Part shown: positions 40,241 through 41,063 of the stretch, in pieces
How the letters are laid out: each line of letters opens with the position of its first letter
Numbering within the stretch: the first letter of the stretch is position 1
From: Candidatus Fonsibacter sp.
GTDB lineage: Bacteria; Pseudomonadota; Alphaproteobacteria; Pelagibacterales; Pelagibacteraceae
Length of the DNA stretch: 41,063 nucleotides
NCBI GenBank assembly: GCA_018882565.1
Contig: VERQ01000003.1
Span: 1 to 41,063 of the forward strand
Direction: 5' to 3'
Position numbers and translations under genes: made by a program
The notes under the pieces: generated by a model
The model's input: only the letters and a program-made list of their open reading frames with translations
The model's database searches: none
What the model was told of the DNA's origin: nothing

Positions 40241-41063
40241 TTATTTTTTACTAATCTTTTTTGTGGATTTTGATTTATCCTCTGATTTTGTATCTTTTTT
40301 TGATTTATCATCAACACTCTTTGCTGACTTGGCTGATGATTTAGACTTAAGATTAGATGATAAATCTTTTACAAGTTCTTCTAATTCTTTTTTGTTAACT
40401 TCTTTAACGGTAACCTTAGCTTTAGACTTAACCAGTTCAACAATCTTATCTTCATATATTGGTCCTCTAAGTCTTGTGATTTCTGAAGGATTTTTTTGAT
40501 AATAATCTCTAATTTGTTTTTCCTGTCCAGGATACATACTCATTTGTTTTTGTAATTCCTGCTGAAGTTCTTGTGTCGTCACTTGGATTTTATAATCTTC
40601 TCCAATTTGGTTTAATACTAGAGCAAGTTTTACTCTTCGTTTTGAAATGTCCAAAATGTCTTCTTCTTCTTCTTTACTAAGTTTTATATCTGAATGATCA
40701 TGTCCATGTTTTTGATCATCATGAGGTTCATCTTTATGAGCTTTTTCATGAATAAAACTATGTTTAACTATTTCTTGTTCATTTTTGACTAAATCTTCAG
40801 GCAAATCAAACTTACAGTTTTCATCTAGATAATCTAAAATTTCTTTTCTAACGATTGTTTCCGTAATTGAAGACTGTTCTTTAGAAAGTTGTTTTTCTAA
40901 TAGAATTTTTAAATCGCTTAAATCTTTTGCTCCTAAATTTTTTGCAAATTGATCATCAATAACTACTGGTTCTGATTTTTTAACTTCTAATATTTTACAA
41001 TTAAATATTGCAGTTTTATTCATTGGTAAAGAGGTTGGCGGGGCAAAATCATGGTTTGGATTT
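40241..41063 (-). CDS. tig: trigger factor, C-terminal part (5' end outside window)
   Basis: Ribosome-associated chaperone that binds nascent chains at L23/L29. The frame is open to the window edge, so the ATG at 41021-41023 is internal; about 274 codons of a protein usually 430-480 long are present. They include the end of the PPIase-linker region, the VVIDDQFAKNLGAKDLSDLK block, and RRVKLALVLNQIGE of the C-terminal domain. A His-rich segment (seven His in 23 residues) is encoded at 40694-40762. The C-terminus is a long Lys/Ser/Asp-rich tail. The downstream order clpP-clpX-lon supports the call. Confidence 0.93.
   Translation of the reverse strand, partial: NPNHDFAPPTSLPMNKTAIFNCKILEVKKSEPVVIDDQFAKNLGAKDLSDLKILLEKQLSKEQSSITETIVRKEILDYLDENCKFDLPEDLVKNEQEIVKHSFIHEKAHKDEPHDDQKHGHDHSDIKLSKEEEEDILDISKRRVKLALVLNQIGEDYKIQVTTQELQQELQKQMSMYPGQEKQIRDYYQKNPSEITRLRGPIYEDKIVELVKSKAKVTVKEVNKKELEELVKDLSSNLKSKSSAKSAKSVDDKSKKDTKSEDKSKSTKKISKK

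Follow-up and report, generated by a model that had tools for sequence, protein, structure and literature searches.

What is new here is a His-rich arm tip, lineage-specific and recurrent, on a trigger factor that is otherwise ordinary; it is present in freshwater SAR11 bacteria of the LD12 lineage (Candidatus Fonsibacter) and, at the same place, in scattered other alphaproteobacteria. We read the LD12 tip as a selected His/Asp-rich tip of arm 1 that would bind Zn(II), perhaps Fe(II), reversibly and act mainly as a metal buffer; we put the probability of this reading at about 0.5. To our knowledge, trigger factor is usually regarded as a uniform, metal-free folding helper, and a literature search confined to open-licence papers returned no description of a His-rich trigger factor.

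Results

A His-rich tract inside trigger factor

The window, i.e. the whole stretch of DNA that was analysed, is the entire contig G000:C75 (41063 bases). Reading of the codons on the reverse strand from 40762 to 40694 (CAT AGT TTT ATT CAT GAA AAA GCT CAT AAA GAT GAA CCT CAT GAT GAT CAA AAA CAT GGA CAT GAT CAT) gave HSFIHEKAHKDEPHDDQKHGHDH, which contains 7 His, 4 Asp and 2 Glu within 23 residues. The His-rich segment of 7 His in 23 residues that the first-pass annotation had placed inside trigger factor was thus exact. HSFIHEKAHKDEPHDDQKHGHDH lies in a 273-residue open frame (40241-41062) that matched Trigger_C (PF05698) at 1.6e-24, with 87 bits against a cut-off of 22.7, indicating that the substrate-binding domain is present, and that matched E. 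coli trigger factor (1w26) at 7e-7. The features are as follows, with His numbered as in the full-length relatives L033 and L003.

40241..41023, reverse strand: trigger factor (tig), C-terminal part, comprising the end of the PPIase domain and the substrate-binding domain (open frame, PF05698 and 1w26 matches, N-terminal part on contig G000:C93)
40694..40762, reverse strand: His-rich tract, 7 His in 23 residues (translation, His count, conservation in the genus)
40733..40798, reverse strand: predicted final helix leading into the arm 1 tip, where three His lie (316, 320, 324) (helix 304-325 of the AlphaFold2 model of L033, transferred by ungapped alignment)
40676..40732, reverse strand: tip of arm 1, predicted to be a disordered loop and containing four His (329, 334, 336, 338) (model residues 326-344 not helical, pLDDT below 50 at 328-336)

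The trigger factor frame contains 8 His in total, and 100,000 random shuffles never brought 7 of them into a window of 23 residues, showing that the cluster is more than chance. Among the 35 frames of at least 150 residues in the window, it was the densest in His, the runners-up having 4. The gene stands in what we take to be the order tig-clpP-clpX-lon, clpP, clpX and lon having been named by inspection of their own sequences.

The trigger factor gene is split by the assembly. It is cut by the end of the contig, its N-terminal 209 residues are found at the edge of contig G000:C93 (locus L358), and about 20 residues are missing in the gap between the two contigs. The last 40 or so bases of the window (41024-41063) did not agree with the corresponding stretch of the four relatives used for comparison, whose sequence there is INLP(E/K)NYP(N/K)KEL(A/V)NKTAIF, and are likely an assembly error that created a false Met codon. 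The internal Met at 41023, taken as a reference point in the first-pass annotation, is then to be regarded as a contig-end artefact, since these bases differ from all four relatives. The N-terminal part on G000:C93 and the full-length relatives carry GFRPGKAP, an instance of GFRxGxxP, the ribosome-binding signature of trigger factor (excerpt of PMC5988418). Between the ribosome-binding and substrate-binding domains, a single FKBP-type PPIase domain (PF00254) was found in the trigger factor frame of six genus members; the match in G000 is partial owing to the contig break.

Structural position of the tract

An AlphaFold2 model was built for the relative L033, which is 96% identical, from a 28-row alignment (mean pLDDT 81.9, pTM 0.63). 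The top Foldseek matches of the model were the E. coli trigger factor structures 2vrh and 1w26, indicating an overall trigger factor fold. In the model, residues 304-325 and 345-371 are helices, and residues 326-344 between them have no secondary structure, with pLDDT below 50 at 328-336. His 316, 320 and 324 are spaced i, i+4 and i+8 on the first helix, and His 329, 334, 336 and 338 fall in the loop. The tract had been placed earlier between two helices, and the model bears this out, with the addition that the tip is predicted to be disordered.

In a sequence alignment the tract adjoins Arg321-Phe322 of E. coli trigger factor on the N-terminal side. In the E. coli dimer, Leu314, Arg321 and Phe322 of arm 1 touch the ribosome-binding domain of the partner, and three of the five substrate sites are partly buried (excerpt of PMC5988418). 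The model and this alignment therefore identify the tract as the tip of arm 1, beside the dimer and substrate surface. The E. coli (1w26) and LD12 proteins have Trigger_C, the FKBP-type PPIase domain and the GFRPGK motif in common, but the corresponding stretch of the E. coli protein has no His, whereas the LD12 linker has 7-9. The linker at the LD12 arm 1 tip is also longer than in most marine SAR11, 67 residues against 46.

The tip is conserved within the LD12 genus

We searched 13 genomes of the same genus, our own included; a trigger factor match was obtained in 10 and none in the other three. Six of the seven His were invariant in all 10 of these proteins, each of which spans the tract, even though two of them are merely 68-70% identical; the seventh, His 316, is replaced by Glu in the most distant member. 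At five of the six invariant positions the codons have changed synonymously between CAT and CAC, and an eighth position near an invariant His varies freely among Q, H and T. Other neighbours change among D, N and G or between P and E.

Among eight close members (28 pairs), pN/pS was 0.040 for the loop (314-341) and 0.033 for the tract (320-339). The remainder of the C-domain gave 0.059, residues 2-231 (N-terminal and PPIase part) 0.128 and the disordered C-terminal tail 0.52. Taking in all 10 members (45 pairs) raised these figures, in the same order, to 0.103, 0.082, 0.157, 0.206 and 0.56. The LD12 loop is under strong purifying selection, and its His do not vary freely among close relatives, the outcome that the first-pass annotation had named as speaking against its proposal. 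The His were invariant at 6 of 7 positions and the other loop residues at 12 of 21, a difference that was not significant (Fisher p = 0.18). Because the loop is conserved as a whole and not at its His alone, selection could act on something other than metal.

Distribution of His-rich tips

For the surveys, a trigger factor was called His-rich if its linker, delimited by fixed anchors, had a stretch of 15 residues with at least 4 His. All 10 trigger factors of the genus were His-rich. Under this strict rule none of the four trigger factors of g12 and none of the three of g9, the clade III sister genera, qualified; their linkers contain 5-6 His (g12) and 1-4 His (g9) and share the pieces HEK, HDHDKIKL or DHSKIKL with LD12. 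No His-rich linker was found in 20 other trigger factors of the SAR11 family or in 77 further named SAR11 proteins, the marine SAR11 being without the tract, nor in 26 trigger factors of the sister family f2. One member of another SAR11 genus (L025 in G027) has a small His cluster, GQHKAHKHFND, in the C-terminal tail and not at the arm tip. The trigger factor matches of L011/L012 (G012:C1:81998-82781) lie in two frames and that of L245 (G055:C21) runs through several stops, probably owing to sequencing or assembly errors.

The class survey gave matches in 107 genomes, from which 103 trigger factors of other alphaproteobacterial families were counted; G000 and G020 were read separately and are not among the 103, and two genomes were left out: G247, which is cut off by the end of a contig, and G251, whose match was weak. 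His-rich linkers were found in 11 of the 103, and 10 of these carry a real His run. The eleventh, L143, was set aside, as its four His form no run in a linker of the usual length; L190 and L198 were kept among the 10 despite linkers of usual length (57 and 56). Three borderline cases (L175, L178 and L229) were left uncounted. In L175/L308 (G212:C59) the arm tip is a long run of unknown bases (N), which masks the tract, followed by a visible DHDHDHEE; a His/Asp-rich tract on this contig may have resisted assembly. In the same 103 proteins the rest of the C-domain contained no His-rich segment by this measure. Trigger factors from 17 additional alphaproteobacteria that came up in the phylum search, and 31 from other Pseudomonadota (31 of the 97 non-alphaproteobacterial genomes in that survey were read) included no His-rich linker. 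The earlier statement that alphaproteobacterial trigger factors are acidic here and lack His thus holds for most of the class and fails for the 10 of 103 proteins from other families that are His-rich at the same place.

The longest tracts elsewhere are of the (HD)n type, with 19 linker His in L177, 13 in L199, 12 in L173, 11 each in L193 and L209 and 10 in L208. These six proteins belong to six alphaproteobacterial families. The (HD)n tracts of other lineages vary in length, with linkers of 56 to 95 residues. The tracts use mixed codons, CAC and CAT for His and GAC and GAT for Asp, which argues for selection at the protein level over slippage of a DNA repeat. Counting overlapping matches of one tract, the pattern CAYGAYCAYGAYCAY fell inside trigger factor in 4 of 4 matches in G284, 1 of 1 in G283, 14 of 15 in G273, 8 of 14 in G258, 8 of 14 in G233 and 5 of 9 in G272. 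In G273 (L177) and G284 (L193) the trigger factor tract holds all or nearly all HDHDH-coding sites of the genome.

The His-rich state probably arose several times

A tree was made from 116 C-domains (141 columns) with the linker left out and with L180 and L184 excluded, as they are cut by contig ends. This tree requires 11 changes of the His state. Shuffling the labels gave 13.4 on average, with 11 of 500 shuffles as low, and well supported branches force at least 3 changes. These counts argue against the class having acquired the His-rich state only once, and several origins are likely.

Linkers measure 62 residues in the sister family f2, about 59 in typical alphaproteobacteria and 46 in marine SAR11. 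Given the first two lengths, it is unsafe to call the SAR11 tract an insertion; judging from these lengths, the shortness of the marine SAR11 linker may itself be derived.

Metal genes in the same genomes

A CDF exporter (PF01545) was found in 8 of 10 genus genomes and 2 of 4 g12 genomes, but in none of the 16 SAR11 genomes that belong to genera other than g1 and g12. This pattern agrees with the presence of fieF in IIIa.3 and LD12 (excerpt of PMC10030771). The g12 trigger factors have their 5-6 His with or without CDF. ZnuA (PF01297) was found in 0 of 10 genus genomes compared with 13 of 20 other SAR11. A ZIP importer in place of ZnuA was considered and rejected, as no match above the cut-off was obtained in any of the 30 SAR11 genomes. 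In profile searches of the 10 genus genomes, with ZnuA and ZIP both without a match, a zinc importer of the LD12 genus is not evident.

The association of His-rich trigger factor with loss of ZnuA holds inside SAR11 and fails across the class, where ZnuA was missing from 3 of the 12 genomes whose trigger factor is His-rich or nearly so (a set that includes G212 and G198) and from 17 of the 68 others. We therefore do not use ZnuA loss as general support. The CDF/ZnuA pattern seen in SAR11 cannot be separated from membership of one clade.

From 30 pattern loci we obtained seven HDHDH proteins other than trigger factor, of which six are metal-related (three of CobW/HypB type, NicO, CbiX and the nitrile hydratase alpha subunit) and one is an ABC ATPase; the seven frames were picked by eye as real-looking proteins, which limits the figure of six in seven.

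Discussion

A proposed metal-binding, buffering tip

From the spacing of the His, their conservation, the recurrence of such tips and published peptide data we infer that the LD12 tip probably binds metal, and infer likewise which metal this would be and that the tip would buffer it. Three His on one face at the end of a helix, together with four in a flexible loop, would provide a site of 3-4 ligands per chain. Such a site would hold a divalent transition metal reversibly, Zn(II) being the likeliest candidate and Fe(II) another possibility. The peptide HDHDHDHDH binds Zn(II) with a Kd of 1.8e-7 M and Fe(II) with a Kd of 6.3e-6 M, and cytosolic His6-GFP guards E. coli against cadmium (excerpts of PMC11938343 and PMC6064632, respectively). 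A metal-binding role fits the His spacing, the (HD)n tracts that recur at this position in unrelated alphaproteobacteria, these affinities and the metal genes of LD12; nickel or copper as the bound metal finds no particular support here. Trigger factor is a very abundant cytosolic protein, and because of this abundance the tip would be mainly a metal buffer, at work in cells that rely on an exporter and are without ZnuA. Metal binding could possibly be coupled to dimerisation or client binding.

Several His-rich proteins invite comparison. SlyD is a separate FKBP-type PPIase with an insert-in-flap chaperone domain and a His/Cys-rich, nickel-binding C-terminal tail. The first-pass annotation had likened the tract to this tail, and the likeness is one of character, both being PPIase/chaperones with a flexible His-rich stretch; it does not extend to place, since SlyD belongs to another protein family and the LD12 His are internal to the substrate-binding arm of trigger factor. 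That the LD12 protein itself is a SlyD is ruled out by its identity as trigger factor, by the position of the tract, by the C-terminal tail, which is Lys/Ser-rich and has no His, and by the absence of a second FKBP domain: in each of the seven genus genomes searched, trigger factor was the sole FKBP-domain protein found. His-rich flexible loops that are taken to store or sense metal occur in HypB, in CobW-type GTPases and in ZnuA. These loops are likewise (HD)n or HDH-rich, and CobW-family and NicO tracts occur in the same survey genomes, but metal handling is the main task of these proteins, unlike trigger factor. General chaperones with His-rich metal-binding tails are the GroES protein HspA of Helicobacter pylori and mycobacterial GroEL1 (excerpts of PMC7840056 and PMC10170517, respectively). 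Both are chaperonin tails, whereas the LD12 tract is an internal loop of a ribosome-associated chaperone and recurs in several families.

Alternative explanations

The alternative that survives best, although we consider it unlikely, requires no metal. The tip would then serve as a hydrophilic, charge-patterned or pH-titratable linker, either for the solubility of the arm or for contact with nascent chains or the ribosome, with His as one acceptable residue of several. The similar conservation of all loop residues is in keeping with it, as are the acidic linkers of most alphaproteobacteria, which function without a His run. However, solubility alone would not require that the same six His persist while the residues beside them change, and the independent lineages are enriched for alternating His and Asp and not for other polar residues.

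Next, and the main metal-based rival to buffering, is a metal-gated switch, in which metal at the tip of arm 1 would alter dimerisation or client binding so that the metal level sets holdase activity. We regard this as rather unlikely. The tract adjoins residues that in E. coli form part of the dimer interface (excerpt of PMC5988418), and conservation of the loop as a whole is what a working part would show; yet the very long (HD)n tracts elsewhere vary in length, as would be expected of a loose binder more than of a finely tuned switch.

Combining these ideas, trigger factor in LD12 and scattered alphaproteobacteria might be a metal-handling chaperone at the ribosome exit, whose tip captures Zn or Fe and then hands it to nascent metalloproteins, or in which the metal level sets dimerisation and client holding. 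Metal supply would in that case be tied to protein folding on the ribosome. This can be entertained as a speculation, less probable than the switch itself.

Trigger factor sits at the ribosome tunnel exit, where it could load metal onto nascent metalloproteins. Such delivery alone is improbable. It would be favoured by the position of the tip in the arms, which have a cavity between them (excerpt of PMC9527764), and by the finding that trigger factor is the only FKBP-domain protein in the seven genus genomes searched, so that there is no SlyD there for metal delivery; but the trigger factor of most relatives works without the tip.

Neutral drift or repeat slippage without function is very improbable: linkers are generally permissive and the (HD)n tracts elsewhere differ in length, but pN/pS of the LD12 tract (0.033-0.040) is below that of the folded domains, and mixed codons disfavour slippage in the (HD)n tracts.

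Significance

A selected His-rich tip in LD12, which is among the most abundant freshwater bacterial groups, together with like tips in roughly one in ten of the other alphaproteobacterial families surveyed, would imply that trigger factor has taken on a part in metal homeostasis, probably on more than one occasion. It offers a simple, testable link between the metal level and folding at the ribosome. In SAR11, the His-rich tip is a possible marker of the shift from marine to freshwater life.
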